From Hoylesella buccalis ATCC 35310 (GTDB lineage: Bacteria; Bacteroidota; Bacteroidia; Bacteroidales; Bacteroidaceae): a stretch of DNA of 64,000 bases. The translations under genes and the position numbers were made by a program. Of the stretch, positions 47,911-64,000 are shown piece by piece (positions within the stretch are counted from its first letter, which is position 1; each line of letters begins with the position of its first letter). Below the pieces are notes generated by a model. That model searched no databases, was not told where the DNA came from, and worked only from the letters and a program-made list of their open reading frames with translations. The DNA is taken from positions 1-64,000 of the forward strand of contig NZ_ADEG01000068.1 in assembly GCF_000177075.1 (NCBI RefSeq), read 5' to 3'.

Positions 47911-49050
47911 TTAATAAAATGTCAGTCGGAAGGTGGTCAGTCCATCGGTCTTGTCGGTGATGAGGTCGATGGAACCATTGCAAGCCTGCATGATCTGTCG
48001 GGAAATGGATAGGCCAATGCCGCTCCCCTGCGGCTTGGTGGTGAAGAAGGGCACGAAGATGTGGCTTGCCACATCATCGGGAATCATCGCTCCGTTGTCG
48101 GTGATGTCGATGATGACGGATTCCTGCGCGTTGGTGTATGCGCACAGTGTGATTTGCCCTTCTTCTCCGATGGCCTCGGAAGCGTTTTTCAGTAGGTTGT
48201 TAACCACCCTGCTGACGAGGCTCTCGTCGGCATACACCAGCAAGTCGCCAGGTTCTACCTCGCAGCTCACGTTCACGTCGGACTTTAACATCGGGCGAAT
48301 GAGGTTCACCATGCGCTCGAGGAACGGTCTTACATAGAACAGGGTGGGTGTGGGCGTGGGCACATGCGTGAACTTGCGGTAATTCTCCACAAAGCGCATC
48401 AGTTCCTTGCCAGTCCTGCTGATGACCTCTAATCCCTGGCGTTGCTCGCCCTGTGAGTTTTGGAGTAGGGTGTCGCTCAGCGATATGATGGGTGTGACGG
48501 TGTTCATGATTTCATGGGTGAGTACGCGGATGAGCTTCACCCAGCTATCTATCTCTTGGTTGGCCAGCTCGCCCTTGATGTCGCTGAAGCCGATGATGCG
48601 CACCCGACGACTCTTGAGAGTTGTGTGGGTCTCGCGCAGAGAGAATCCCGCCATCTTCTCCTTGATTTGATTGATGTGGGTGATGGTCTCCACCTGCAAC
48701 AGGTTGAGCGCGGCTCGGTTGCTGCGGAGTACGATGCCCCGCTCCACGTCGACCACCAAGATGCCCGTATCCACCGAATCGAGTATGAGTTCGAAGTATT
48801 TTTCCCGTTCTATCTGTTCATCCCGGGCGTGTTGTAAAATTTCCTTCACGCGGTTGAGCGACTCGTTGAGCAAAAGCTCGCTGCCGTATTTCTTGTTGAT
48901 GGGAAACTGGAAAGTATAGTCGCCGATGTCTATGGCGTTGAACATGAATGTCACCTTGCCAAGGTCGCGTCGATACCTCCGCCACAGTTGCAGATAGGCA
49001 ACGAGGGCGGCAAGCAATGCCAGGCAGAGTATGATGACAATCACGTTCAT
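47911..49050 (-). CDS. NtrB/NtrY-like sensor histidine kinase
   Basis: 379 residues. One N-terminal membrane helix (residues ~2-22), a short linker, then a PAS-like segment (ILDSVDTGILVVDVERGIVLRSNRAALNLL, about 89-118). H-box VLTHEIMNTVTPIISLSD with phospho-accepting H179, N-box NLLKNASEAIGEEGQ, then DNGAMIPDD and GSGIGLSISRQIMQ. With only one membrane helix and almost no periplasmic part, it likely senses an intramembrane or cytoplasmic signal. It is encoded three bases after its regulator's stop and should phosphorylate it. Confidence 0.93.
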   Translation of the reverse strand: MNVIVIILCLALLAALVAYLQLWRRYRRDLGKVTFMFNAIDIGDYTFQFPINKKYGSELLLNESLNRVKEILQHARDEQIEREKYFELILDSVDTGILVVDVERGIVLRSNRAALNLLQVETITHINQIKEKMAGFSLRETHTTLKSRRVRIIGFSDIKGELANQEIDSWVKLIRVLTHEIMNTVTPIISLSDTLLQNSQGEQRQGLEVISRTGKELMRFVENYRKFTHVPTPTPTLFYVRPFLERMVNLIRPMLKSDVNVSCEVEPGDLLVYADESLVSRVVNNLLKNASEAIGEEGQITLCAYTNAQESVIIDITDNGAMIPDDVASHIFVPFFTTKPQGSGIGLSISRQIMQACNGSIDLITDKTDGLTTFRLTFY

Positions 49051-49053
49051 GCG

Positions 49054-50382
49054 CTATAGTCCGTAACGTTTAATCTTGTTGTATAAAGTCTGTCGGGAGA
49101 TACCTAACCTGAACGCCACCTGCGAGAGGTTGCCGTCGCATTCACGGATGGTTTTCTCGATGAGCCTGCGTTCCATCTCGTCGAGCGTACGCACGTCCTC
49201 AATTGGTTTCTCCTGTCGGGCGGGACCACTCTCTATGTCGTCCTCGGCAATAGTAGTGCCGCTGCACAGGATAACCGCTTTCTCCATGGCATGTTGCAGT
49301 TCGCGAATGTTACCGTACCAAGGTTGCTCTTCGAGCTTGGTCATGGCGTCGGCCGAGAATTTTGTCTCCGGTTTGTTGTACATCGTCGCGTAGCGTTTGA
49401 GGAAGATGCTGGCCAAGGCTGTGATGTCTTCTTTGCGCTCGCGCAAGGGCGGCAGATGCAGGTGAATGGTGTTGACGCGGTAGAGCAAGTCTTCGCGAAA
49501 TTCGCCGTTGGTCACCATTTCTTGCAGGTCTCGGTTGGTGGCGCAAATCAGCCGCACGTCGATGGGAATTTGCTCGCTGTCTCCCACACGCACGATGCTC
49601 CTGCGCTGCAAGGCCGTGAGCAGCTTTGCCTGCAACGCATAGCTCAGGTTACCTATCTCATCGAGAAACAACGTGCCTCCCTCCGCCAGTTCAAACTTTC
49701 CCGGCTTGTCTGTCTTGGCATCCGTGAAAGCACCTTTCGTGTGTCCAAAGAGTTCGCTTTCAAAAAGTGTCTCCGTGATAGCTCCCATGTCGATGGGCAT
49801 CATCTGGTGTCCATGCCGTTTCGACAGGCGGTGTATCTCTTTGGCCAGCACTTCCTTGCCGGTTCCGTTCTCGCCCGTGATGAGGATGTTGGCATCGGTG
49901 GCTGCTACTTTCTCCACCATCAAGCGCAGATCTTGCATGGCCGGCGACACGCCCCAGTACATTTCTCCCTCATGGGTGGTGGCGTTCTGGATGTTTTTCT
50001 TGGTTTTTCGGTAGGCATTGGTGAGCGTATCGATGAGTTTGGCATTGTCGAAAGGCTTTACCACGAAGTCGGTTGCGCCCTCCTTGATGCCCGTCACCGC
50101 TAATTCAATATCGGCATAAGCCGTGAAGAGCACCACCTGCGTGCGGGGACTCAGTTTCTTGATCTCGCGTAGCCAGAAGAGTCCCTCGTTGCCATTGTTG
50201 ATGCCGCTGCGGAAATTCATATCGAGCAGCACCACGTCGGGTTTGTCCTCGCGTAGGCGGGTGGGGATATTCTCAGGCTTGGCTATCGCCGCGATATGCT
50301 CGAATACATTTTCTATCAGCATCTTCACCGTGGTGAGGATGTTTCGGTTGTCGTCAACTATCAGTATGCTACCTTGTTTCAT
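49054..50382 (-). CDS. NtrC-family sigma-54 activator response regulator
   Basis: 442 residues in three domains. Receiver: D10/D11, phospho-acceptor D54 (VVLLDMNF), K109 (FVVKPFD). AAA+ domain: Walker A GENGTGKE (170-177), Walker B GGTLFLDEIG (235-244), and the sigma-54 contact loop as GAFTDA (217-222) in place of GAFTGA. C-terminal Fis-type helix-turn-helix GNLSQVAFRLGISRQTLYNKI (about 416-436). It should bind upstream dyads and hydrolyse ATP to open sigma-54 promoters. The divergent efflux operon carries exactly such sites (50557-50594 and 50649-50664), making it the obvious target. Confidence 0.95.
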   Translation of the reverse strand: MKQGSILIVDDNRNILTTVKMLIENVFEHIAAIAKPENIPTRLREDKPDVVLLDMNFRSGINNGNEGLFWLREIKKLSPRTQVVLFTAYADIELAVTGIKEGATDFVVKPFDNAKLIDTLTNAYRKTKKNIQNATTHEGEMYWGVSPAMQDLRLMVEKVAATDANILITGENGTGKEVLAKEIHRLSKRHGHQMMPIDMGAITETLFESELFGHTKGAFTDAKTDKPGKFELAEGGTLFLDEIGNLSYALQAKLLTALQRRSIVRVGDSEQIPIDVRLICATNRDLQEMVTNGEFREDLLYRVNTIHLHLPPLRERKEDITALASIFLKRYATMYNKPETKFSADAMTKLEEQPWYGNIRELQHAMEKAVILCSGTTIAEDDIESGPARQEKPIEDVRTLDEMERRLIEKTIRECDGNLSQVAFRLGISRQTLYNKIKRYGL

Positions 50383-50451: not shown

Positions 50452-50482
50452 CAAAGATATTCTTTTTTCTCTTTAGTATCAA
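50452..50482 (-). promoter_or_regulatory. Promoter of the regulator-kinase operon
   Basis: Minus strand TTG (50482-50480), 20 bases, TATCTTTG (50459-50452), with a leader of about 65 bases. Confidence 0.6.
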
Positions 50483-50556: not shown

Positions 50557-50594
50557 TGTCAAATAATTGGGCAGCAGTGTCTAATTGTTGGACA
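50557..50594 (+). promoter_or_regulatory. Tandem upstream activator dyads
   Basis: TGTCAAATAATTGGGCA (50557-50573) and TGTCTAATTGTTGGACA (50578-50594). Both have the dyad form TGTCnAA...TTGGnCA. Their centres are 21 bp apart, two helical turns, and 80-110 bp before the predicted start, the usual geometry for an NtrC-type activator. Confidence 0.7.
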
Positions 50595-50648
50595 GGCTTG
50601 TAATCACGCTTTTTGCGCAACGTGCAGATAGATAGGGTGTTATGTTTC

Positions 50649-50664
50649 TGGCACGGCATTGGCA
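50649..50664 (+). promoter_or_regulatory. Sigma-54 promoter of the efflux operon
   Basis: TGGCACGGCATTGGCA matches the consensus TGGCACG-N4-TTGCW at all but one position, with GG and GC at the correct -24/-12 distance. Start predicted near 50675, so the coding start is 50678, not the in-frame ATG at 50642. Confidence 0.75.
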
Positions 50665-50677
50665 ACTGTTTATGCGT

Positions 50678-52003
50678 ATGAGAACAGCAATTACGATAAT
50701 ATTATTAGATTTGGCCGCTCTTCCGCTATTGGCGCAAGAGACTTGGACCATGAACCGCTGCATTCAGTATGCGGTGGAGCACAACAACGGAGTGCGCAAA
50801 CAGCGATTGGAGGTGCGACAGAGCAAGGTTGACGAGCGCACGGCGAGGCTCGACCTTCTGCCCACGGTGTCGGCACAGACCACGGCGCAGTATGCCTGGG
50901 GACGTAACATCAACCCAGAGACGAACACCTACAACACCATCACCACTTTCAACAACTATTACAGCATTGGGGCGGAGGTGCCTTTGTTTGACGGTGGCCG
51001 TACCTGGAATGCCTTTCAGCAAGCTCGACTGGCGCGTGCCAAGAGTATGACGGTTCTGCAAAAGACAGCCGACGACAAGGCCATAGCCGTGATGGCGAAA
51101 TTCGTGGAGGCGGTGTACAGCCAGCAGAGCATTGGTTTGGCACGGCGCAAATTGGCCGATAGTCAGGCTCTGCTTCGCAAGACCCGCGCGATGTTCGACC
51201 TTGGAGAGAAGTCGCGACCCGATGTGGCGCAGATGGAAAGCCAGGTGGCGGAGGACGATTACAACTTGCTGCACCAACAGAACGCAGCCAGTTTGGCATT
51301 GATGGCCTTGAAAGCGGAGATGAATTTTCCCGTAGGCGATACGCTTGCCCTCGACACTCTGTTGACCGCGAACCTGTCTGTTGCCGACGATGTCGGAAGC
51401 CTTTATGCCGCTTTCCAAGCTGAATCGCCGGAAGTAAAGACGGCAGCGTTCAATGTCAAGAACGCCCGCTACCATTATCTTATACAACGCGGACAGCTGC
51501 TGCCCGTCCTGGCATTGGGCGGAGGAATCAACACCAACTATTACCGCAATCTCTCGCAGGGCAGCAGTAAGACCGACAACTTCGGCAAACAGTTCAACAA
51601 CAACATGGGCGAATATGTCTACCTTTCATTTTCCATCCCCCTTTTCATGCCTTCGCGCTGGCGTGCCGCACGCAGAGCGAAAGCCGATTGGGAGGCAAGC
51701 AAACTCGACTTGGAAGATGCGCGTCGCAAACTGCACGATGATATTGCGCAGGCGGTGCTCGACCGTGACGGCTATTCGCGTGAGCTCATGAAGATGGAAC
51801 GAAAGACAACGGCCGACTCCATAGCCTGGCACCTGGCGTCGCGCAAGTATGAGGAGGGCATGCTCTCGACTTTCGACCTGCATACAGCGGCGCAAACCTT
51901 GCTCGACAGTCGCATCAAACTGCTGCAAATGCGGTTGATGCTTGAGATGAAACAACGATTGGTCAACTATTATAAAGGAATACGAACATGGACATTGAAA
52001 TAA
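50678..52003 (+). CDS. TolC-family outer-membrane efflux protein
   Basis: 441 residues from 50678 (MRTAITIILLDLAALPLLAQ, a signal peptide). In-frame ATGs at 50642 and 50672 lie upstream of or at the predicted sigma-54 start site. Two long helical repeats are visible, opening with WTMNRCIQYAVEHNNGVRKQRLEVRQSKVDERTARLDLLPTVSA and again around AAFQAESPEVKTAAFNVKNARYHYLIQRGQLLPVLAL. The YVYLSFSIPLFMPSRWRAARRAKADWEASK segment is typical of the family. It forms the outer-membrane exit duct for the pump encoded downstream; its last bases overlap the fusion-protein gene by 16. Confidence 0.93.
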   Translation: MRTAITIILLDLAALPLLAQETWTMNRCIQYAVEHNNGVRKQRLEVRQSKVDERTARLDLLPTVSAQTTAQYAWGRNINPETNTYNTITTFNNYYSIGAEVPLFDGGRTWNAFQQARLARAKSMTVLQKTADDKAIAVMAKFVEAVYSQQSIGLARRKLADSQALLRKTRAMFDLGEKSRPDVAQMESQVAEDDYNLLHQQNAASLALMALKAEMNFPVGDTLALDTLLTANLSVADDVGSLYAAFQAESPEVKTAAFNVKNARYHYLIQRGQLLPVLALGGGINTNYYRNLSQGSSKTDNFGKQFNNNMGEYVYLSFSIPLFMPSRWRAARRAKADWEASKLDLEDARRKLHDDIAQAVLDRDGYSRELMKMERKTTADSIAWHLASRKYEEGMLSTFDLHTAAQTLLDSRIKLLQMRLMLEMKQRLVNYYKGIRTWTLK

Positions 52004-53241
52004 AACAAAAGAAGTTTTGGATACCCCGAAAGTATTGGACTTGGATAGGGGGAGGCGTTATTGTGGTGGCTGCGCTGCTGTGGTTGGCTCTGGGAAATTT
52101 CTCGTCAACACTGAAAGTCGACAGTCGGGGGCTCAGCATTGGTGATGTGAAGCAAGCGCAGTTTGACGACTATGTGAGCGTAGATGGCAATGTGGTGCCC
52201 ATCCAGGTAGTACAGATCTCGCCGGAAGAAGGCGGTGTAGTCATGGAGAGAGTGGCGGAGGAAGGCTCCCATGTCAGGAAGGGCGATGTCATCGTGAGGC
52301 TGAACAACAGCAATCTCGACCTTGAAATCCTCAATGCTGAGAGCGAACTGGCGGAGAAGCAGAACATGCTCCGCAACACGCAGATTACGATGGAACAGGA
52401 CCGACTCAACAATCAGAACGAGGCGGCGCAGCTGTCAATGGACGTACAGGCCAAGAAGCGAACCTACAACCATCAGACCGCATTGCAGCAGGAACAGCTC
52501 AACAGCCGCGAGGAATACCTCAAAGCAAAGGAAGACTACGAGCTGGCCGTGAAAAAGAATGAGCTGATTGCGCAACGACTCAAGAAAGATGCGCAGCTCC
52601 GTCGCGCGCAGATGAATCAGATGAACGACAACCTCTCGTCAATGAGGCGCAACGTGGAGCTGGTGCGCCAGCGCAAGGAGCATCTCAACGTGCGCTCGCA
52701 AATCGACGGCGAGGTGGGACAGCTCAACATCGAGCTGGGACAGAGTATCTCTCCAGGACAGAAGATTGGTGTCATCAACGACCTCAGCGACTATAAAGTG
52801 GAGGCGCAGGTTGACGAGCATTACATCGATCGGGTGCACCAAGGGCTCACAGCGACTTTCGAACAGAACGGTAAGCATTATTCTCTCACCGTGCGCAAGG
52901 TGTACCCCGAGGTGAAAGACGGCAGGTTCAAGATAGATTTCGTGTTCAGCGGCAAACGTCCGACCAACATCCGAACGGGCCAGACCTATTATGTCGACTT
53001 GCAGTTGGGCGAGTCGAAACGGGCGGTGCTCATCCCCAAGGGCACGTTCTACAGCGTGACGGGTGGGCAATGGATCTTTGTACTCGACAAGGATGGCAAG
53101 AAAGCCTACCGTCGCAACATCCGCATCGGACGGCAGAATCCGCAGTATTACGAGGTGCTGGAAGGTCTTCAGCCCGGCGAGCGAGTCATCGTGAGCGGCT
53201 ACGAAAGCTACAAAGACAACGAAATTTTGGTTTTGGAATAA
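51988..53241 (+). CDS. Membrane-fusion (HlyD/MacA-type) efflux adaptor
   Basis: 417 residues. One membrane helix (about 20-36, IGGGVIVVAALLWLAL), a first lipoyl half (VVPIQVVQISPEEGGVVMERVAEEGSHVRKGDVIVRL), a long coiled-coil hairpin (about 105-235, rich in Gln/Arg/Lys/Glu), then the second lipoyl half and a beta-barrel (YKVEAQVDEHYIDRVHQGLTATF). It bridges the inner-membrane permeases to the TolC-like duct. The MacA-like arrangement fits the FtsX-type permeases that follow. A 70-base gap leads to the first permease. Confidence 0.93.
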   Translation: MDIEIKQKKFWIPRKYWTWIGGGVIVVAALLWLALGNFSSTLKVDSRGLSIGDVKQAQFDDYVSVDGNVVPIQVVQISPEEGGVVMERVAEEGSHVRKGDVIVRLNNSNLDLEILNAESELAEKQNMLRNTQITMEQDRLNNQNEAAQLSMDVQAKKRTYNHQTALQQEQLNSREEYLKAKEDYELAVKKNELIAQRLKKDAQLRRAQMNQMNDNLSSMRRNVELVRQRKEHLNVRSQIDGEVGQLNIELGQSISPGQKIGVINDLSDYKVEAQVDEHYIDRVHQGLTATFEQNGKHYSLTVRKVYPEVKDGRFKIDFVFSGKRPTNIRTGQTYYVDLQLGESKRAVLIPKGTFYSVTGGQWIFVLDKDGKKAYRRNIRIGRQNPQYYEVLEGLQPGERVIVSGYESYKDNEILVLE

Positions 53242-53311: not shown

Positions 53312-55678
53312 ATGAAGCAACTATTCAATCTCAAATCCTATTTCACCTTCCTGTCGAGGAACAAGGTGTACACCGCCATCAACGTGTTCGGACTGTCAAT
53401 AAGCCTGATGTTCGTCATCATCATCGGCTTGTACACCCAACAGGAATACGCCGTCGATACCATGCACAGCAAGGCCGACCGTATCTATGCGCAAGGCTAT
53501 GATATGGAGCACAACGGGCAGAAAGAAGCCACCACCGGCTCACACTGGTATATACAGAAGCACCTGAAACAGCGGTACCCAGAGATAGAAAGCAGTTGCG
53601 CGTTGGTTAGTTCCAATTTTAAATTGAACTTGCCCACCACCGAGAAAGTGATGAAACGGATTCTTTTCACGGATTCTACTTTCTATCGTATCTTCGATTT
53701 TGAGCTGGTTCGAGGCGATCGCAACCATGTGTTGGATGCAGTGAATAGCGCAGTGGTGACCGAGGAAACTGCCCGGCAGCTCTACGGCAATGTTGATCCG
53801 ATAGGCAAGCCCTTGGTTTATTCTGATACCGTTCGCCTGGTCATTACGGGCGTGGCACGCAAGATGGAAGGCTCAAGCATTGACGGCGCCGACGTTATCG
53901 CGCGTTTCGAGAACGTAAAGGGAATCAATCCGGGGATGACCAGCGAGTACATGAACAACGCCACGGGTGCGGAATTGATGTTTCTGATGAAGCCCCATCA
54001 TGATATCAGGACGAAAGGCAAGGATATCGACAAGTTCATGAAAGATGTAAACTGGCTGTACCAGATGCCCGGTGTCAAAACCAAGATGGTCTTTGTTCCG
54101 CTCAAGCAACTCTATTTTTCAGAGATAGGAAGCTCGTCGGGTGCAACATCGCGAGGCGACCGGAAACTTGTCAACATGCTGTTTGCGGTAGAAATCATGA
54201 TTCTTCTGTTCTCCGTTTTCAACTATATCAACCTCACGGTGGCACAATCCGGCAGGCGAGCAAGAGAGATGGCTACCCGACGTCTCTTTGGCAGTCAGCG
54301 AAAACACATCATGGAAAGGCTGATATTGGAAAGTATTGTCATGTGTTTGTGTTCCCTGCTCATCGCCATTGGCTTGGCATTCGCGTTTGTAAAGTATGCC
54401 GACAAGTTGCTGGTAACCGAAATCAACATGGCTCACCTGTTCAGCCCAACCAATCTGCTCGTCATCTTTGCGTTCGTCTTAATGGTAGGCATACTGGCAG
54501 GTATGCTCCCCGCTGTATTCATTTCACGCTCGAAACCCATCGATGTGGTTCGTGGAACGTTTCGCACCCATGTGAAAATGGGATTCAGCAAACTGTTCAT
54601 CATCTTGCAAAGTGCGGCAACCATCTTGTTGTTGGCTTGCTCATTGACCATCGGTTTGCAGACCCACCATCTCTTATCGGCTCCGTTGGGCTACGATACC
54701 GACAACCTGATCAAAATCGAAAACCCCTCAGCGGACAGTGTGCCCATCGAACAATTCAAGTCACGTGTAGCTCATTTACCTTTTGTTAAGGGCATCACCG
54801 CTTGTCAAGGCATCCCGTTGGACTGGGGAAACAACCAGACGATGGAGATTAACGGGCGTACGCTCAGTTTCCAAATGTTCGGGGGCGATGAGAATTACTT
54901 CAAGGTGTTGGGGCTTCAACTTGTAAAAGATTATCACTTGGCATCCCAAGAAGGCATTTACGTCACCCAGCATACCCTTCAGGAAGTTGGCTTGAAACCC
55001 GACGCAAGATACATTGATTTGGGTCCTTCCAGGAAAAAGACTCCTATCAGAGGCGTGCTTAGAGATTTCCGGATTGGAAACATCACCAGCGAGATACACC
55101 CCATAGGCGTGTGGATCTACCATAAAGAAGTCTTACGTCCGTGGCATTTCGTGATGAAAATCACCGGCGATCCTATGGCGGGATACGAGCAGATAAGAAA
55201 AATCTATAAAGAGGTGTTCAAAGAGGAAGTGGAAGCTGAAAAGCCTTTCGTGGACCAACAACTGCAAATGTTCTTTGACAAAGAGATTCGTCTTTCAAAG
55301 ATTGTCATGCTGTTTGCCTTTATTGCCATCGTCATCTCTCTGTTGGGGTTGATTGCCATGAGTCTGTATTTCATTCAGCAACGCTATAAGGAAATCGCCG
55401 TGCGCAAGGTGTTCGGAAGCAACAACCGACAAATCCTCATGAAGCTACTGCGCACATTCGCCGTCTATGTGTTGGTGGCATTTGCCATAGCCGTGCCTGT
55501 CATTCATTTCATCATGACGCATTGGCTCTCCAACTATAATTATCGCATCTCGCTTTCACCATGGATCTATCTTGCTGCAGGTGCGGTATGTATGCTCCTC
55601 TCTCTGACGGCGGTATATTTCCAAAGCCGAATTGCCGCGAATGAGAATCCTGTAAACCATATCAAAGACAATCAATAA
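53312..55678 (+). CDS. FtsX/MacB-type ABC permease, copy 1
   Basis: 788 residues. First membrane helix ~19-40, a large periplasmic domain (~45-280), three membrane helices (~285-420, starting AVEIMILLFSVFNYINLTVAQSGRRAREMATRRLFG), then a second half with another periplasmic domain and a final three-helix FtsX domain (FAFIAIVISLLGLIAMSLYFIQQRYKEIAVRKVFGSNNRQI). This doubled FtsX layout belongs to the MacB-like exporter family of Bacteroidetes. No ATPase is fused, so it must pair with a separate one, most likely the gene at 63685. It shares its first ~28 residues with copies 2 and 3. Confidence 0.93.
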   Translation: MKQLFNLKSYFTFLSRNKVYTAINVFGLSISLMFVIIIGLYTQQEYAVDTMHSKADRIYAQGYDMEHNGQKEATTGSHWYIQKHLKQRYPEIESSCALVSSNFKLNLPTTEKVMKRILFTDSTFYRIFDFELVRGDRNHVLDAVNSAVVTEETARQLYGNVDPIGKPLVYSDTVRLVITGVARKMEGSSIDGADVIARFENVKGINPGMTSEYMNNATGAELMFLMKPHHDIRTKGKDIDKFMKDVNWLYQMPGVKTKMVFVPLKQLYFSEIGSSSGATSRGDRKLVNMLFAVEIMILLFSVFNYINLTVAQSGRRAREMATRRLFGSQRKHIMERLILESIVMCLCSLLIAIGLAFAFVKYADKLLVTEINMAHLFSPTNLLVIFAFVLMVGILAGMLPAVFISRSKPIDVVRGTFRTHVKMGFSKLFIILQSAATILLLACSLTIGLQTHHLLSAPLGYDTDNLIKIENPSADSVPIEQFKSRVAHLPFVKGITACQGIPLDWGNNQTMEINGRTLSFQMFGGDENYFKVLGLQLVKDYHLASQEGIYVTQHTLQEVGLKPDARYIDLGPSRKKTPIRGVLRDFRIGNITSEIHPIGVWIYHKEVLRPWHFVMKITGDPMAGYEQIRKIYKEVFKEEVEAEKPFVDQQLQMFFDKEIRLSKIVMLFAFIAIVISLLGLIAMSLYFIQQRYKEIAVRKVFGSNNRQILMKLLRTFAVYVLVAFAIAVPVIHFIMTHWLSNYNYRISLSPWIYLAAGAVCMLLSLTAVYFQSRIAANENPVNHIKDNQ

Positions 55679-55680
55679 AA

Positions 55681-58026
55681 ATGAGACAACTGTTTAATCT
55701 CAAATCTTATTTCACCTTCCTGTCGAGAAACAAGGTGTACACCGCCATCAACGTGTTCGGACTGGGCATTAGCTTTGCGTTCGTTATCCTCATTGGTCTG
55801 TACTATCAGCACGAAACGGGCATCGACAAGAGCATCGCCAATGTGGACCGGCTCTATTTGTTGGGCTGTGATTTTAGTTCCGACAAGATGAGCGGAACAT
55901 CGCGCGAAATCATCAGAGTGCTGCAAAAGCAACTGCCACAAATAGAAAAAGGCTGTGCTTTCCACATCAACCGTGAACAACATGTGACAACGGCCGACGA
56001 GGACAATGTGAAAGTGACCATGATGTACACCGACTCCACGTTCTACTCCATGTTCAATCAACCGCTTGCAGAAGGTGATGCCGCCACGGCCCTGAACGGA
56101 CTGACCGACGTGGTGATTTCCCGTAAGTTGGCGCAGATGCTGTTCCGCAACGGCAATGCAATGAGCAAGGTGTTGACGGTAGAGAACCGGAAAGTGTATG
56201 TAAGGGGCATCTATGAGAACATGAGCGGAACCTCTTTCCCCGACTGTGACATCATCGGGCGGTACGAACTGCTGCGCGAACGCATACCTTGGCTCTTTAA
56301 GATCGACGGCAATTTCGGCAGTCCGGATGTGGTGTTGAGTTTGAGACCAGGCACAGATATCGGCGCACTGGAAAATAATGTTAACCGTATTTTACCAAAG
56401 ATATACAAAGAAAATTTCAAGATTGAATGCAAGTTCCGCCTGATACCATTCAGTGAGAGCTATTTTTCAGAATACTTTTCCAACGTATGCCAGCGCGGAA
56501 AGGGCGGCTTGGTTTATCTCATTTTCATTATCGGTATCATCATCTTGGTGTTCTCGGTGATGAACTACATCAACCTGACGGTCGCCCTGTCGGGCAATCG
56601 CTCTAAGGAAATGGCGACAAGAAGGCTGTTGGGCAGTCGGAAGAGCGACATCCTCTGGCGGTTGGTCATCGAAAGCGTGTGCCTTTGCTGCTGCTCAGTT
56701 GTTCTTTCTGTGTTGTTGGCATGGGCTTCCATTCCTTATACCTGTCAGTTGTTGGACACCCACATCACCATCGCCGAGCTGTTCAGCCCCATCAACCTGT
56801 TGTTGTTGGTAGGCATTGTGCTGGCAGTAGGTATGTTGGCGGGAGTTCTGCCGGCGGTCATCCAATCGCGCGTGAAACCCATCGACGTGGTGCGCGGCAC
56901 CTTCCGCCGCCAGACAAAGATGCTATTCAGTAAGGTGTTCATCGTGGTGCAAAACGCCATCACCATCATTTTCATTGCCGTAGCACTCATTGGCAGTCGA
57001 CAGATACGGCACCTCATCAATGCCCCGTTGGGCTATGACACCCGGGGCGTGATGGAAATCGGTGTTCCGCAGGATGCCCGCAAGGCCAATCTGTTTAAGA
57101 AAAACTTGCAACAACTGACACCAGTCAAGAAGGTTTCCGTCTGCTTGTGCTCGCCCCTCTTGGGCGGATTCAACCAGATGGCTTACATTGGCAAGAAGGC
57201 AGTGCGCTGCCAACGCTTCTATGCGGACAAGGATTACCTGCCTTTGCTGGGCATCGAGGTGAAGAAGCAATTTGCGCAGAGCGATTCCGCCAAGCTCTTT
57301 GTGTCGCCCAACTTCCACTCGGTAATGCAGTTGAAACCTGATGAAAGGGCATTCCGCTATAATGAGACTTACGAGCGTGAGCAAATCAACGGCATTCTGA
57401 ATGATTTCCATCTTTACACCATTGATATGGACAACGCTGACGATCAGGTGACAGTGGTTTACCTGTTCGACCAAATCACGCACGACGACTTTGCGAACAA
57501 TGTACTCATCAAGGTGGAAGGCGACGAGCAAGAAGCCTACCGACTGGTGCAGGAGACTTACAAGAAAGTTTATCATGAGGATTTGGCGCAGGAGTCGCCT
57601 TACCTCAATCAGAAGATAGCCGAGGTGTATAAGGAACAGACCCGCATCGTGCGCATCCTCACCATCTTCTCGTTCCTTGCCGTTCTTATCTCGCTGTTGG
57701 GACTTGTCGCCATGTCCACCTACTTCATTCAGCAGCGCAGCAAGGAGATTGCCATCCGCAAAGTGTTTGGCTCCACGAGCAACCGAATCCGCCGTGACCT
57801 CATCCGCACCTTCCTTCAATATGTGGGCGTTGCTTTCATTATCAGCGTACCCGTCATCTGGTATTTTGCAGGCGAATGGATCAGCCAGTACAGTTACCGT
57901 ATCGTGTGGTGGCCGTGGATCATCGTAGCTGGCATCCTCGTGCTGCTCATCTCGTTCTGCGCTGTGGCCGTTCAGAGCTATATGGCAAGTAATGAGAACC
58001 CGGTAAAGAATATCAAGCAAGAGTAG
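55681..58026 (+). CDS. FtsX/MacB-type ABC permease, copy 2
   Basis: 781 residues, starting two bases after copy 1 ends. Same doubled architecture; the first membrane helix is GLGISFAFVILIGLYY, and the inner helices begin IIGIIILVFSVMNYINLTVALSGNRSKEMATRRLLG. Periplasmic parts are clearly diverged from copies 1 and 3, whereas the first 28 residues and the last ~110 are almost the same as copy 3. Probably forms a homo- or heterodimer with a neighbouring copy. Confidence 0.93.
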   Translation: MRQLFNLKSYFTFLSRNKVYTAINVFGLGISFAFVILIGLYYQHETGIDKSIANVDRLYLLGCDFSSDKMSGTSREIIRVLQKQLPQIEKGCAFHINREQHVTTADEDNVKVTMMYTDSTFYSMFNQPLAEGDAATALNGLTDVVISRKLAQMLFRNGNAMSKVLTVENRKVYVRGIYENMSGTSFPDCDIIGRYELLRERIPWLFKIDGNFGSPDVVLSLRPGTDIGALENNVNRILPKIYKENFKIECKFRLIPFSESYFSEYFSNVCQRGKGGLVYLIFIIGIIILVFSVMNYINLTVALSGNRSKEMATRRLLGSRKSDILWRLVIESVCLCCCSVVLSVLLAWASIPYTCQLLDTHITIAELFSPINLLLLVGIVLAVGMLAGVLPAVIQSRVKPIDVVRGTFRRQTKMLFSKVFIVVQNAITIIFIAVALIGSRQIRHLINAPLGYDTRGVMEIGVPQDARKANLFKKNLQQLTPVKKVSVCLCSPLLGGFNQMAYIGKKAVRCQRFYADKDYLPLLGIEVKKQFAQSDSAKLFVSPNFHSVMQLKPDERAFRYNETYEREQINGILNDFHLYTIDMDNADDQVTVVYLFDQITHDDFANNVLIKVEGDEQEAYRLVQETYKKVYHEDLAQESPYLNQKIAEVYKEQTRIVRILTIFSFLAVLISLLGLVAMSTYFIQQRSKEIAIRKVFGSTSNRIRRDLIRTFLQYVGVAFIISVPVIWYFAGEWISQYSYRIVWWPWIIVAGILVLLISFCAVAVQSYMASNENPVKNIKQE
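57688..58026 (+). repeat. 3' segment nearly identical to that of permease copy 3
   Basis: From ATCTCGCTGTTGGGACTTGT onward the DNA matches 60131-60469 closely, with mainly synonymous changes, whereas upstream sequences differ strongly. Suggests gene conversion between tandem copies. Confidence 0.7.
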
Positions 58027-58081
58027 AGTAACGCCGAAAGAGGTAAGTTTCTCAGGTCTATTATCGAAAAAAGACGCAATT

Positions 58082-60469
58082 ATGAAACAGCTATTCAATC
58101 TCAAATCTTATTTCACCTTCCTGTCGCGGAACAAGGTGTATACCGCCATCAACGTGTTCGGACTGAGCATCTCGCTCATGTTCGTGCTGCTCATCGGCGT
58201 CTATACCTGGCAGGAGAAGAGTGTCGACCGCCAGCACAGCAAGGGCGACCGCATCTATGCGATGGGGCTCGACTTCTATGAAGACCATGAAAAGGTACTT
58301 GGATTCCACCATGCCCTACTGAGTCGTTTCCGCAAAAATTATCCGGAAATAGAAAACACCTGTGGCTTTGTCGTCTCAGACATGCGGCTGCAAAAGGGAG
58401 ATGAGTTCTACAAGGCAACGGTGTTGGAGACCGATTCCACCTTCTTCTCCATGTTCGATTTCAAGCTGCTGCAGGGCGACAGGCAGACCTGTCTGAACGA
58501 CCGGAACAACGTGGTCGTCACCAAGCGGTTTGCCAATAAATGGTTTGGCACGGAGGAAGTGCTCGGTCGCGAGATTACATGGAACGACAGCATTCGGTAT
58601 CATGTCACCGGCGTGGTGGAGGATTTCGACAATACGATTATCAACAAGAACGTTGAAATGATCATCGACTTCTCCTGGGAATGGTATCACAACACGGCGA
58701 ATATGGACGAGTCTTTCCCCAAGGCAGTGAATTTTTCGGGTGCAAGCATCTTCCTGCAAGTGAGAAAGGGTGCAAAGATGATGGGGCGAGAGAAAGAGTT
58801 CGGCAAATTCATTCACTCGTTCTGGCCTGATTTCGACAAGGTGCCCTTCTATTGCAGACCGTTCTTGGTGCCGCTGAACAAAATATATTTCTCTGGTTAC
58901 GAGAGCTACAACGACAACTTGCGCACCGGAAACAGCCGACTGGTCAACCTGCTTTTCATTGTGGGCTTGGTGGTGCTGCTCTTTGCCATCATGAACTACA
59001 TCAACCTCACGGTGGCGCAATCGGGCTATCGTGCGCGGGAGATGGCGGCACGACGTCTCTTTGGTGCAAAACGCAAGCACATCATCCTGCGGCTGATGAT
59101 AGAAAGCTCAACGCTCTGTTTCATCTCCCTGCTGGTAGCAGTGTCGCTTGCGCTGGCTTTCGCCCCAATGACTGGTTGCTTGCTCAGCACCACCATGGAC
59201 ATGCGTGTGCTCGCAACACCTGCCGTCATCGGCCTGTTGCTTGCCTTTACGCTGCTCGTCGGCTTCATCTCGGGCATCTTCCCCGCCTACGTCTTGTCGA
59301 AAGCCAAGCCCATTGAGGTGGTGAGGGGAACCTTTCGGCACCGCACGAAGATGGTGCTGGGCAGGGTGTTCATCGTGGTTCAGAACATCATCACCATCGT
59401 GATGCTCGCCTGTGCCACCATCATGTCGCTGCAAATGCTGCACCTTGTGAACGCACCATTGGGTTTCAACACGAAGAACCTGATTTGCCTCTATCAAGGA
59501 GATGCTTTCAGCAGCACGAACTTCCCGGTGTTCCTCAACAAGGTGAAGCAGGTTTCGGGAGTGAAATTAGTGTCCTGTTCTGATGGTACCCCGCAGGACG
59601 GCGGCAACAACAATACGGTGACGGGAAAGGACAAGGTCTATTCCTTCCAAATGCTCATCGGCGACCCCAACTATCTGAAGGTGTATGGGCTGTCGCTAAA
59701 ACATGACAATCACGTGGGACATCGACCCGTCATTTATCTCAATGACCAGGCAGTGGGTGATTTGAAGATGAAGTCCACGGACAGTCACATGAGTGATTTC
59801 TACAAACAAACAAAATTCTTTCTTTTCCCGGATAATGCGGCGTTTGGTGGCATTCTCAACGTTTTCCGACTGCGCAACATCACGGAGACCAAAGTTTATC
59901 CGCTGTTGCTCTGCATCAAGGACAAGGTGGAGAACCCATGGAACGTTACGATTCAGTTTGAGGGAAATCCCGCTAAAACCTACAAGGAGATACAGCGCAT
60001 ATATAAAGAGGTGTTCCATGAGGAGCTAAACCAGGCACATCCGTTCGTTGACAAGAGCATTGAATCGGTGTTTGAGTCGGAGTTGAGACTTTCAAAGATT
60101 ATCGCCCTCTTTGCTTTCATCGCCATCGTCATCTCGCTGTTGGGACTTGTCGCCATGTCCACTTACTTCATTCAGCAGCGCAGCAAGGAGATTGCCATCC
60201 GCAAGGTGTTCGGCTCCACGAGCAACCGAATCCGCCGAGATCTCATCCGCACCTTCCTCCAATATGTGGCAGTCGCCTTCGTCATCAGCGTGCCCGTCAT
60301 CTGGTATATTATCAGCGAATGGATTAGCCGGTACAGTTACCGCATCGTGTGGTGGCCTTGGATTATCGTTGCCGGCATCCTCGTGCTGCTTATCTCGTTC
60401 TGCGCTGTGGCCATTCAGAGCTACATGGCCAGCAACGAGAACCCCGTCAAGAACATTAAACAAGAATAA
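58082..60469 (+). CDS. FtsX/MacB-type ABC permease, copy 3
   Basis: 795 residues, 55 bases after copy 2. The opening segment is the same as in copy 1 (MKQLFNLKSYFTFLSRNKV), the middle is closer to copy 1 in layout (VGLVVLLFAIMNYINLTVAQSGYRAREMAARRLFG), and the last ~110 residues match copy 2. The gene is therefore a mosaic of its two neighbours. It ends two bases before the GIN-domain gene. Confidence 0.93.
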   Translation: MKQLFNLKSYFTFLSRNKVYTAINVFGLSISLMFVLLIGVYTWQEKSVDRQHSKGDRIYAMGLDFYEDHEKVLGFHHALLSRFRKNYPEIENTCGFVVSDMRLQKGDEFYKATVLETDSTFFSMFDFKLLQGDRQTCLNDRNNVVVTKRFANKWFGTEEVLGREITWNDSIRYHVTGVVEDFDNTIINKNVEMIIDFSWEWYHNTANMDESFPKAVNFSGASIFLQVRKGAKMMGREKEFGKFIHSFWPDFDKVPFYCRPFLVPLNKIYFSGYESYNDNLRTGNSRLVNLLFIVGLVVLLFAIMNYINLTVAQSGYRAREMAARRLFGAKRKHIILRLMIESSTLCFISLLVAVSLALAFAPMTGCLLSTTMDMRVLATPAVIGLLLAFTLLVGFISGIFPAYVLSKAKPIEVVRGTFRHRTKMVLGRVFIVVQNIITIVMLACATIMSLQMLHLVNAPLGFNTKNLICLYQGDAFSSTNFPVFLNKVKQVSGVKLVSCSDGTPQDGGNNNTVTGKDKVYSFQMLIGDPNYLKVYGLSLKHDNHVGHRPVIYLNDQAVGDLKMKSTDSHMSDFYKQTKFFLFPDNAAFGGILNVFRLRNITETKVYPLLLCIKDKVENPWNVTIQFEGNPAKTYKEIQRIYKEVFHEELNQAHPFVDKSIESVFESELRLSKIIALFAFIAIVISLLGLVAMSTYFIQQRSKEIAIRKVFGSTSNRIRRDLIRTFLQYVAVAFVISVPVIWYIISEWISRYSYRIVWWPWIIVAGILVLLISFCAVAIQSYMASNENPVKNIKQE
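60131..60469 (+). repeat. 3' segment shared with permease copy 2
   Basis: Counterpart of 57688-58026; the shared stretch encodes the last FtsX domain and the C-terminal SNENPVKNIKQE. Confidence 0.7.
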
Positions 60470-60471
60470 AT

Positions 60472-61203
60472 ATGAAAAAGAAAATCTTTTTTTGCATGAC
60501 AGCTGTCCTTTTCTTGCTGTCATCATGTATCGTTGTACAAGCCAACTCATACGAGGCTGCAAATGACGAAAGTAGAGCTTACACGCTGAGAGATTTCTCG
60601 GCAATCGAAGTCTCCGGAGCCATCAATGTAGAGTTTGTGCAGAGTAACAATCAAAACTACCGTGTAAAGGCGGTAGGTTCGCCTGACATGCTGCCGAAGT
60701 TGCAGATGGAAGTGCGCAGTCAAGTGCTAACCATCAAGCAAAAACCTAACCCCGGCATTCATTCAGGCAATTATCACCTCACGGTTTATGTGCAGTCACC
60801 CAACTTGCAGTCGGTCAAAGTTTCTGGCGCATGTGATGTGCTCATTCGGTCGCTCAATGCCTCGGCAGTGCGGTTGGAGGCACGCGGTTCGAGTGATGTC
60901 AAGGTCAATCAGCTGACGGCCAACAGCTTGGAAGTTCGGTTGCAGGGTTCTTCCGATGCTCGTTTGGCTGGTAAAGTGTCGAATGCCGTATATACCTGTT
61001 CCGGTTCTTCCGATGTGAGAGCCTACGATCTCAAGGCGAAAGACGTGTCGGCCACATGCTCCGGCTCGTCGGATGTCTATTGCTTCGCCACCCGTTCCGT
61101 CAGTGCCAAAGCCTCCGGCTCGAGCGACATCCGCATCAAAGGCAACCCTGTCCAACGACAATTGGATAAATCAGGGTCTTCGGATATTTACGTATTACAT
61201 TAA
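60472..61203 (+). CDS. GIN-domain lipoprotein (DUF2807)
   Basis: 243 residues. The signal peptide ends in a lipobox-like LSSC, so it may be lipid-anchored. The body is one head-type GIN domain: FSAIEVSGAINVEFVQSN near the start, then a right-handed repeat pattern with Gly-Ser-Ser-Asp turns about every 20 residues (six or more GSSD motifs). Such proteins are common in Bacteroidetes and are annotated as putative adhesins or stress-linked proteins; the biochemical role is unknown. Its place inside the efflux operon, with 2- and 11-base gaps, points to an envelope-stress or export-related function. Confidence 0.88.
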   Translation: MKKKIFFCMTAVLFLLSSCIVVQANSYEAANDESRAYTLRDFSAIEVSGAINVEFVQSNNQNYRVKAVGSPDMLPKLQMEVRSQVLTIKQKPNPGIHSGNYHLTVYVQSPNLQSVKVSGACDVLIRSLNASAVRLEARGSSDVKVNQLTANSLEVRLQGSSDARLAGKVSNAVYTCSGSSDVRAYDLKAKDVSATCSGSSDVYCFATRSVSAKASGSSDIRIKGNPVQRQLDKSGSSDIYVLH

Positions 61204-61214
61204 TCATCTATACT

Positions 61215-63617
61215 ATGTTGCATCTTATTCAACAGTCTTGCCGCATGGCTTGGCGCAATCTATTCCGCCGCAGGCAGCACAATGTGGCCAAGATTCTATG
61301 TTTGGCGCTCGGATTGAGTGTCAGTGCGGTTATCATTGCCGAGATTTATTACGAACAGACTTTCGACCAGAGTTATCCCGATTACGACCGTATCTGCCGT
61401 GTGACCGAGGGCTTCAAGATGAAAGCGCAGGAGTTCACGGAGGGCTTTAATACGTCGGGCGGCGTGGCACCGATGATGAAACGAACCATTCCACAGGTGG
61501 AACTGGCTACGCGCACCAATCCAATCGTGACCGATGGAGAGGTGGAGACTGATGACAAAGTACGTGTCCGTGCCGATGTCTACTTTGCCGACAGCTGCTT
61601 CTTCCGCATGTTTCCGGCCCGCATCCTTGAAGGTGATGCCGACCGAGCACTCACGGAACCGTTCTGTTGTGTGGTGAATCGTTCGACGGCAGAGCGCTTG
61701 GGCGGCAACGTTGTGGGTCGGCATATCCAGTCGAAGGATATGCCTGGCCTGAAGCTGACCATCGTGGGCGTCTACGAGGATTATCCTCACAACTCAACGT
61801 TCCACAACTATGATGTGATCGGATCAATGAAGACGCAGAAGAATTTTAGCTACGACGGTCAGGATAACCTGGTCGGTAACGACCGTTACATCAGTTTTGT
61901 GCGTCTCAGGAAAGGTACTTCTCCCGATTCGTTGAAGCCCCTTATACACCGCATGATACAGACACATTATCCCGTCCAGGAGCTGCGAAAGTCCGGCACG
62001 TGGCTCACTTACAAGCTAACCCCCATATCCCGCTATTACACGGAGGCGGACAATGTGCGCCAAATGTTCTGGATTCTGTCGCTCCTGGTCATCATCCTGC
62101 TTTCGGTCTCGATACTCAACTATGTGCTGATTGTGGTTGGCAATTTGGTCAGTCGTGCCCGTGAGATGGCGGTACGAAAATGCTATGGTGCCGGACAAGG
62201 TGCCGTCTACAGCATCACCTTCAGCGAAGTGTGCCTGCATCTCGTGCTATCCCTCATGTTAGGAGCAGCTCTGTTGTGGGCTTGCCATGGCACAATCGAA
62301 CAGTTGTTGTCGGCTCCGCTCTCTGTGTTGGTATTCAACCGTGGTGCGTGGATTTTGCTTTTGATTGCGTTGATGGTGCTCTTTGTGGGTGGTATCGTAC
62401 CCGGATGGCTTTACAACCGCATGCCCGTGACCATTGCATTTCATGGCTATGTTGAGGCCAGGCGTCGCTGGAAGGTGGCACTCCTGGGGCTTGAGTTTGC
62501 CATGGTGAGCTTCCTTTTAGGTCTGCTTTTCATTGTCAGCATGCAGTATAGGCATACGGTTGGCTTTGACTTGGGCTATCAGTGTACCGGTCTCGCATCA
62601 GTTAACATCACCGCATTGCAGCCCGATGAACGGCAGACGGCATACGACGAGGTAGGCCGTATGAGCGGCGTGCGTCAGGTGTCGGCGTGCAATACGTTCC
62701 CATTCTATGGTATGAGTGGTAACAACGTAACTGTTCCAGGGGAAGAATCACAACTGTTCAATATCGCCGATCTCTTCACTGTCGCCGACCATTACTTTGA
62801 TATGCTGCAGATTCCTGTTGTCGCAGGCCGTGTCTTCGCATCGGGCAGCGACAGCCTCAAGCAAGTAATGGTGAGTCAGGACTTTGCCTCTATGATGAAA
62901 AAACTGCGTGGATGGGACGACGTGGTGGGTCGGAAGGTGATTATCAGTGAGCATAGCGGCAACGAAAACAAAGATTTACTGACCATCGTAGGCGTCTATC
63001 GTGACATTCATCTGGGCAGTGCAGAGAACAATGGGAGGGACAGACCCTCTGTGATTTTCTACGGACGTGCGGCCAACTGGATGAACAATTACCTGCTGAT
63101 ACAGCTGGACGATTTCAGCGTAGAGAAGCTGACAGACATCCAGACGCGGCTCCAGCGGTTCTTCCCGGGCAAAACAGTCTTGGTCGAGAGTGTGGAGAAC
63201 CTCAAGAACATGCAGTATGTTGCGACCCGCAACTTCCGCAACGGTGTGATGACGGTTGGCATTGTGGTGCTTTTCATTGCGCTGATGGGACTTATTGGTT
63301 ATGTCAGCGACGAGGTGAACCGTCGTCACAAGGAAATAGCCATCCGCAAGGTGAACGGTGCTTGCGTGGGCGACGTGATGCGCATCTTCCAGCTAAACAT
63401 CCTTCGCACCGCCATTCCAGCCGTACTGATTGGGGCTGTTGGTGCCTACTGGGTAGCCGCACAGTGGCTGCAGCTCTATGACAACCGCATTGCGTTGACG
63501 GTGTGGCCGTTCCTCGTGACAATCGTCCTCGTGCTGCTCATCATCGTTGCCGTTGTGGCAATCAACTGCTGGCGCGTGGCCAACAGCAACCCGGTGGAGT
63601 ATCTGAAACAAGAGTAA
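61215..63617 (+). CDS. FtsX/MacB-type ABC permease, copy 4 (divergent)
   Basis: 800 residues. Same doubled FtsX topology (first helix ILCLALGLSVSAVIIAEIYY; inner helices from LVIILLSVSILNYVLIVVGNLVSRAREMAVRKCYGA; final TVGIVVLFIALMGLIGYVSDEVNRRHKEIAIRKVNGA), but it lacks the shared N-terminus of copies 1-3 and is a distinct subfamily. It lies directly before the ATPase gene (67 bases), so it may be the ATPase's closest partner. Confidence 0.93.
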   Translation: MLHLIQQSCRMAWRNLFRRRQHNVAKILCLALGLSVSAVIIAEIYYEQTFDQSYPDYDRICRVTEGFKMKAQEFTEGFNTSGGVAPMMKRTIPQVELATRTNPIVTDGEVETDDKVRVRADVYFADSCFFRMFPARILEGDADRALTEPFCCVVNRSTAERLGGNVVGRHIQSKDMPGLKLTIVGVYEDYPHNSTFHNYDVIGSMKTQKNFSYDGQDNLVGNDRYISFVRLRKGTSPDSLKPLIHRMIQTHYPVQELRKSGTWLTYKLTPISRYYTEADNVRQMFWILSLLVIILLSVSILNYVLIVVGNLVSRAREMAVRKCYGAGQGAVYSITFSEVCLHLVLSLMLGAALLWACHGTIEQLLSAPLSVLVFNRGAWILLLIALMVLFVGGIVPGWLYNRMPVTIAFHGYVEARRRWKVALLGLEFAMVSFLLGLLFIVSMQYRHTVGFDLGYQCTGLASVNITALQPDERQTAYDEVGRMSGVRQVSACNTFPFYGMSGNNVTVPGEESQLFNIADLFTVADHYFDMLQIPVVAGRVFASGSDSLKQVMVSQDFASMMKKLRGWDDVVGRKVIISEHSGNENKDLLTIVGVYRDIHLGSAENNGRDRPSVIFYGRAANWMNNYLLIQLDDFSVEKLTDIQTRLQRFFPGKTVLVESVENLKNMQYVATRNFRNGVMTVGIVVLFIALMGLIGYVSDEVNRRHKEIAIRKVNGACVGDVMRIFQLNILRTAIPAVLIGAVGAYWVAAQWLQLYDNRIALTVWPFLVTIVLVLLIIVAVVAINCWRVANSNPVEYLKQE

Positions 63618-63684: not shown

Positions 63685-64000
63685 ATGATCAAAGTAGAAA
63701 ATTTAAGCAAATCGTTCCGTACGGAAGAAGTGGAGACCATTGCGCTCAACAATGTGTCGTTCCAAGTAGAAGACAAGGAGTTTGTTGCCATCATGGGGCC
63801 TTCGGGCTGTGGCAAGTCAACTCTGCTCAACATCCTCGGACTGCTCGACAATCCCACGGGCGGCAAGTATTGGTTAGGCGACAAGGAAGTGTCGGCGCTG
63901 AAGGAGAAGGATCGCACCGACGTGCGCAAGGGAGAGATAGGGTTCGTGTTCCAGAGCTTCAACCTCATCGACGAGCTCAATGTGGAAGAGAACATCGAAC
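63685..64000 (+). CDS. ABC transporter ATPase (MacB/LolD type), N-terminal part
   Basis: The first 105 codons are inside the window; the gene runs off the right edge. Visible: A-loop region IKVENLSKSFRTEEVETIALNNV, Walker A GPSGCGKS, and the Q-loop in GFVFQSFNLIDELNVEEN. The insertion VSALKEKDRTDVRKGEIGFVFQSF is typical of the LolD/MacB (o228) ATPase class that drives FtsX-type permeases. It is the only ATPase seen for four upstream permeases. The signature motif and Walker B lie beyond the edge. Confidence 0.95.
   Translation, partial: MIKVENLSKSFRTEEVETIALNNVSFQVEDKEFVAIMGPSGCGKSTLLNILGLLDNPTGGKYWLGDKEVSALKEKDRTDVRKGEIGFVFQSFNLIDELNVEENIE

Follow-up and report, generated by a model that had tools for sequence, protein, structure and literature searches.

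A predicted sigma-54 switch before a MacB-type exporter operon in Hoylesella buccalis and its conservation in related bacteria

Introduction

Switches of the NtrC family, such as NtrC/glnA, ZraR and AtoC, combine an activator consisting of a phospho-receiver, an AAA+ domain and a Fis-type domain with paired 17-bp dyads near -100, an IHF-like bend and a -24/-12 promoter. In the BceRS-BceAB flux-sensing modules, a kinase which lacks an extracytoplasmic domain and has two membrane spans is linked to FtsX-type permeases, and the regulator is of the OmpR type.

Within the Bacteroidota, sigma-54 promoters have been mapped in Flavobacterium psychrophilum, one of which was tested by mutation (PMC9723704). 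The targets there are chaperones, Lon, and gliding and exported proteins (PMC9723704), and differ from the target proposed below. Sigma-54 control of COG0577 permeases has been predicted in Bacteroidia in a 2025 survey (PMC12316311), which concerns the same permease class, sigma factor and bacterial class as the present locus. As far as its accessible text goes, the survey gives enrichment statistics, with no account of an activator, of dyads, of geometry or of a leader. Such regulation is already known, at least by prediction (PMC12316311).

Here we describe a locus in a window of 64,000 nucleotides (the whole stretch of DNA that was analysed) from Hoylesella buccalis ATCC 35310, lying within contig 50 of a 3.03 Mb genome. 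The locus resembles NtrC/glnA, ZraR and AtoC in its type of activator, paired dyads near -100, IHF-like site and -24/-12 promoter. It differs from them in its dyad (TGTCYAAN3TTRGACA), in a spacing kept within 3 bp over four genera, in the GAFTDA loop of the activator, in a predicted near-leaderless output in one genus, and in having a single efflux target. As in BceRS-BceAB, a kinase without an extracytoplasmic domain is linked to FtsX-type permeases, but here it has one membrane span rather than two and is paired with a sigma-54 activator rather than an OmpR-type regulator. The switch is of a known kind and is well conserved. In a literature search that lay mostly outside subscription journals, we found no paper on this regulator/exporter module, and no report of the dyad motif, its geometry or a sigma-54-driven leaderless efflux message.

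The two-component system and the exporter operon

The regulator and kinase genes are divergent from the exporter operon, and the genes and the promoter of the regulator are as follows.

47911-49050, reverse strand: histidine kinase, spanning the membrane once at its N-terminal end and lacking a periplasmic domain
49054-50382, reverse strand: NtrC-family response regulator (receiver, AAA+ domain with GAFTDA loop, Fis-type helix-turn-helix), assigned from its domains
50452-50482, reverse strand: vegetative promoter (TAnnTTTG type) of the regulator operon, with TATCTTTG at 50459-50452 and TTG at 50482-50480
50678-52003, forward strand: TolC-family outer membrane protein, start at 50678 with a predicted 3-nt leader
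51988-53241, forward strand: HlyD/RND-type periplasmic adaptor, overlapping the end of the TolC gene
53312-55678, forward strand: MacB_PCD/FtsX permease, copy 1
55681-58026, forward strand: MacB_PCD/FtsX permease, copy 2
58082-60469, forward strand: MacB_PCD/FtsX permease, copy 3
60472-61203, forward strand (L088:2473-3204): DUF2807 (GIN domain) protein, probably in the operon
61215-63617, forward strand (L088:3216-5618): MacB_PCD/FtsX permease of a second type
63685-64000, forward strand (L088:5686-6348): ABC ATPase (DarD/LolD-like), which extends beyond the window as far as contig position 64347

An intact AAA+ activator domain and a Fis-type DNA-binding domain had been predicted for the regulator, and both are borne out by domain matches, with the receiver, Sigma54_activat (strongly), the AAA lid and HTH_8/Fis all over the cut-off. 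The phospho-acceptor and Walker positions (D10, D11, D54, T87 and K109, together with GENGTGKE and LDEIG) do not vary among five regulator orthologs. Among proteins of solved structure, the best relatives of the regulator are NtrC-family regulators and ZraR. Four named homologs are 97-98% identical (two Hoylesella timonensis strains, Prevotella sp. BV3P1 and a Prevotellaceae MAG), which places the organism in the Prevotella timonensis group. The regulator clade is present in 10 of the 22 genera of the family that were sampled.

The loop that contacts sigma-54 reads GAFTDA rather than GAFTGA, which the original prediction had missed. GAFTDA, GSFTDA or GAYTDA is seen in every ortholog in which the loop was read, and among other activators in the genome three have GAFTGA and one has GSFTGA. 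GAFTDA is among the loop variants that would maintain activation according to the D. vulgaris regulome (PMC4641369). Since -24/-12 boxes are conserved at the present loci (see below), we argue that GAFTDA-type activators do work with sigma-54.

Vegetative promoters of the Bacteroidota have a consensus of the TAnnTTTG type (PMC7366714). The regulator operon has such a promoter, as had been proposed, with TATCTTTG as its -7 box on the reverse strand, and all seven regulators tested (7/7) have a TAnnTTTGC box upstream.

In 5/5 orthologs checked, the kinase spans the membrane once near its N-terminus and lacks a periplasmic domain, and should therefore sense either a partner protein or a cue arising in the membrane or cytoplasm. 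By analogy with Bce-type flux sensing, the kinase might learn of the substrate from the MacB/FtsX permeases, an idea which we regard as improbable.

TolC, adaptor, MacB_PCD/FtsX permease and ATPase genes occur here in one operon, the gene set of a tripartite MacB-type exporter, and the protein families point to a function in export. The adaptor, MacB-like permease and ATPase families match those of the darobactin exporter DarBCD and of MacAB-TolC. These are the nearest named exporter families, with all scores below the NCBIfam equivalog cut-offs (DarC 213.6 against 450, DarD 273.1 against 375, DarB 67 against 700). Unlike DarBCD and MacAB-TolC, the operon has several permeases and a DUF2807 protein, and unlike in MacB the ATPase is a separate gene. 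The three tandem permeases (53312-60469) are of one type and 40-46% identical. Relatives have one copy of this type (G187) or two (G142), so the permease gene has been multiplied. The DUF2807 (GIN domain) protein is encoded between the two permease types.

The predicted sigma-54 promoter and its tandem dyads

The control elements, all on the forward strand, lie between the regulator and TolC genes.

50557-50573: dyad 1, TGTCAAATAATTGGGCA, a likely regulator-binding site centred at about -110, with position and spacing kept in 28 loci
50578-50594: dyad 2, TGTCTAATTGTTGGACA, a likely regulator-binding site centred at about -89, conserved
50618-50630: IHF-like motif, CAACGTGCAGATA (consensus YAANNNNTTGATW, two of nine positions off), a likely bend between enhancer and promoter
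50649-50664: sigma-54 -24/-12 promoter, TGGCACGGCATTGGCA, read directly, layout conserved
50675: predicted transcription start, by the sigma-54 rule that places +1 12 nt beyond the GC of the -12 element

The near-perfect -24/-12 promoter that had been proposed to point towards the TolC gene is present, with TGGCACGGCATTGGCA matching 11 of 12 positions of the consensus TGGCACG-N4-TTGCW and the GG-N10-GC spacing intact (the -24 GG and -12 GC are 10 nt apart). The genome also encodes rpoN (G000:C96, E 1.7e-47), whose absence the original prediction had named as counting against it. The box and dyads were sought genome-wide by pattern searches, in which one-mismatch -24/-12 matches numbered 183, compared with 105 for the reversed control. 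Because such matches are frequent, the box alone is weak evidence.

The two 17-bp dyads are found where they had been described, 21 bp apart from start to start, and their centres are two helical turns apart at about -110 and -89 from the predicted start. The perfect dyad TGTCYAANNNTTRGACA occurs once in the genome, as dyad 2. No second tandem dyad pair was found in the genome at two mismatches, and one loose single match lies elsewhere (C102:66293). A larger regulon in this genome was rejected, as these searches found no further tandem dyad.

A search for the dyad in relatives, which had been suggested as a check, recovered the same layout at 28 loci in four genera (L104 and L119 have weak dyads). 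These come from 49 upstream regions gathered in family- and genus-wide searches, the window included, and each combines a dyad pair spaced 21 or 22 bp with a box that begins 92-95 bp from the first member of the pair. Among the other loci, many lack a TolC or permease gene running divergently from the regulator. Across the four genera, the spacing of enhancer and promoter stays within 3 bp.

Given the frequency of one-mismatch boxes in the genome, the -24/-12 match and the dyads could be look-alikes, with the operon driven by a vegetative promoter. This is extremely improbable, as the joint layout conserved in 28 loci was found in 0 of 1,120 dinucleotide shuffles, which rules out a chance origin of the arrangement of dyads and box, and inspection by eye found no good TAnnTTTG box in the stretch from the dyads to TolC.

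The dyads also occur together with the regulator. Across 299 genomes of the genus, dyads 21 bp apart were found in 12 and dyads 22 bp apart in 20, and in each case 10 of these genomes have a close relative of the regulator. Tandem dyads are present in 20 of the 25 genomes with a close regulator and in 12 of the 274 without one (Fisher p ~1e-18, a guide only, as the species are related). Five of the 25 regulator-bearing genomes have no tandem dyad by the patterns used. Several of the 12 genomes without a close regulator carry a sigma-54 box at a distance of 92 bp from the first dyad, so their tandem dyads may serve more distant regulators. In two genomes, G066 and G069, the regulator gene is found at the far end of the operon, about 11 kb off, yet the dyads and box remain before TolC and so belong to the exporter promoter. 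The -12 element in both of these genomes is GT, not GC.

These patterns bear on whether the dyads could be bound by another factor, either a repressor or a different activator, while the regulator next to them has its targets elsewhere. As palindromes of 17 bp the dyads are nothing out of the ordinary, and their binding by the regulator is a prediction, so there is some room for such a reading. We nevertheless think it highly improbable, because the tandem dyads co-occur with the regulator over the 299 genomes and hold a fixed position relative to the sigma-54 box, sigma-54 promoters require an upstream activator, and the window's genome has no further tandem site.

Variants of the layout occur in relatives. 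At L110, L111, L116 and L158 (from other genera and G127) the dyads and sigma-54 box stand directly before an FtsX-type permease rather than TolC. At L031 (G187) a series of GTCGGAC/GTCTGAC-type repeats follows the dyads. A third dyad, TTGTCTAATTATTAGACAA, also stands there, close to the promoter of the regulator itself, and may point to autoregulation in that species.

Perfect -24/-12 matches also lie before HtpG (L042, G000:C77:7117) and a ClpC-like gene (L043, G000:C82:31331) in the window's genome, in line with the sigma-54 control of chaperones reported for other Bacteroidota.

An IHF-like site between enhancer and promoter

Between the dyads and the promoter is an IHF-like site that the original prediction missed. 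In the 12 species of the genus compared, the motif YAA-N4-TTGATW lies within 1 bp of -31 relative to the box. Its mean is 1.6 mismatches in nine positions, and none of 1,000 permuted motifs did equally well, a count which is not independent because the motif was first spotted by eye in the same sequences. The motif is weaker outside the genus. The genome has five matches to the HU/IHF family. A bend at this site would suit the rigid spacing of enhancer and promoter.

The predicted start and short leader

The predicted transcription start at 50675 agrees with the original figure and lies 3 nt before the likely TolC ATG at 50678. Upstream starts for TolC at 50642 and 50672 were rejected, since several orthologs have in-frame stops directly upstream of the ATG; the ATG at 50672 is also missing from near relatives. 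The protein read from 50678 opens with a signal peptide, as judged by eye. With only 3-4 nt between predicted start and ATG, the mRNA should be nearly leaderless, which was not remarked on in the original prediction and would be the most unusual feature of the switch.

By the same start rule the leader is 3-4 nt in 17/17 readable orthologous loci of the genus. Sixteen of these come from the joint upstream reading (with the window counted from 50678) and one is G101; they include four near-identical genomes of the timonensis group and some close pairs, and represent about 12 independent lineages. In the other three genera the predicted leaders are at least 13 nt, and in a more distant subgroup of the switch within the genus they are mostly longer, with less certain start codons. 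The putative sigma-54 boxes before HtpG and the ClpC-like gene in the same genome give leaders of 26 and 35 nt. Short sigma-54 leaders as a genus-wide rule are ruled out by these two leaders and by the longer-leader subgroup. The short leader would be a conserved and promoter-specific feature, provided that the 12-nt start rule holds.

It is also conceivable that the switch is real and the message is not near-leaderless, either because transcription starts further upstream or because a longer mRNA from a second promoter is the main template. Sigma-54 starts can shift by a few nucleotides, 50675 is a rule-based prediction, and the same switch has leaders of at least 13 nt in other genera. Against this, the ATG at +4/+5 is the start that retains the signal peptide, in-frame stops lie directly upstream in several orthologs, the distance is equal in all 17 orthologous loci, and a shift of 1-3 nt would still give a leader below 8 nt. 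We therefore consider a longer leader unlikely. That sigma-54 transcription in this genus has its start fixed 3-4 nt ahead of the TolC AUG, making a conserved sigma-54-driven near-leaderless efflux operon, seems to us reasonably likely.

Short leaders are rare in the phylum. In B. thetaiotaomicron 3.7% of 5' UTRs are shorter than 10 nt (PMC7366714), and in F. psychrophilum 5.5% of mRNAs are leaderless (PMC9723704). The operon is a direct test case for sigma-54-driven leaderless translation. If the leader is as short as predicted, one may speculate that a leaderless message lets the pump be made when ordinary translation initiation is impaired.

A model for the switch

We consider it very likely that the two-component system acts through a sigma-54 switch on one main target, the TolC-adaptor-permease-ATPase operon. 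The original proposal of such a switch between an NtrC-type regulator and an efflux operon is supported by phylogenetic footprinting, by the way tandem dyads and the regulator occur together across 299 genomes, and by the rpoN gene in the genome. Several findings count against the model: the loop is GAFTDA and not GAFTGA, G066 and G069 carry GT at the -12 element, the IHF-like motif weakens beyond the genus, some tandem dyads lack a close regulator, and five genomes with the regulator have no detected dyads.

In the proposed mechanism, the vegetative promoter would supply the regulator (49054-50382) and the kinase (47911-49050). With no signal, RNA polymerase carrying sigma-54 would sit closed on the -24/-12 box. 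On receipt of a signal the kinase would phosphorylate the regulator, which would then bind both dyads (about -110 and -89), sited on a single helix face, and oligomerise. With the DNA bent at the IHF-like site near -51, the AAA+ ring could open the promoter through its GAFTDA loop, and transcription would begin at about 50675, leaving a 5' end only 3 nt before the TolC AUG (50678).

The locus had also been described as a self-contained, signal-dependent efflux module. The term self-contained fits, because only one tandem dyad was found in the genome. Signal dependence is suggested by the receiver domain and the kinase gene, and efflux by the protein families, so these two parts stand as predictions.

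The comparison assigns to the regulator clade a defined DNA motif, a promoter of fixed geometry and a predicted target, and therefore the regulons of little-studied regulators become readable from sequence. The conservation also shows that GAFTDA-type activators accompany sigma-54 promoters.

Other putative sigma-54 elements in the genome

Two further elements were seen in the window's genome. A sigma-54 activator without a receiver domain and with a GSFTGA loop (L085:1857-3122, G000:C115) adjoins an apparent LptE-like gene. A -24/-12-like box, TGGCACATCCATTGCG, lies at L084:6295-6310 (G000:C109:44294) between a GAFTGA-type response regulator and apparent kdp potassium-uptake genes, and its placement suggests that kdp may be under sigma-54 control.
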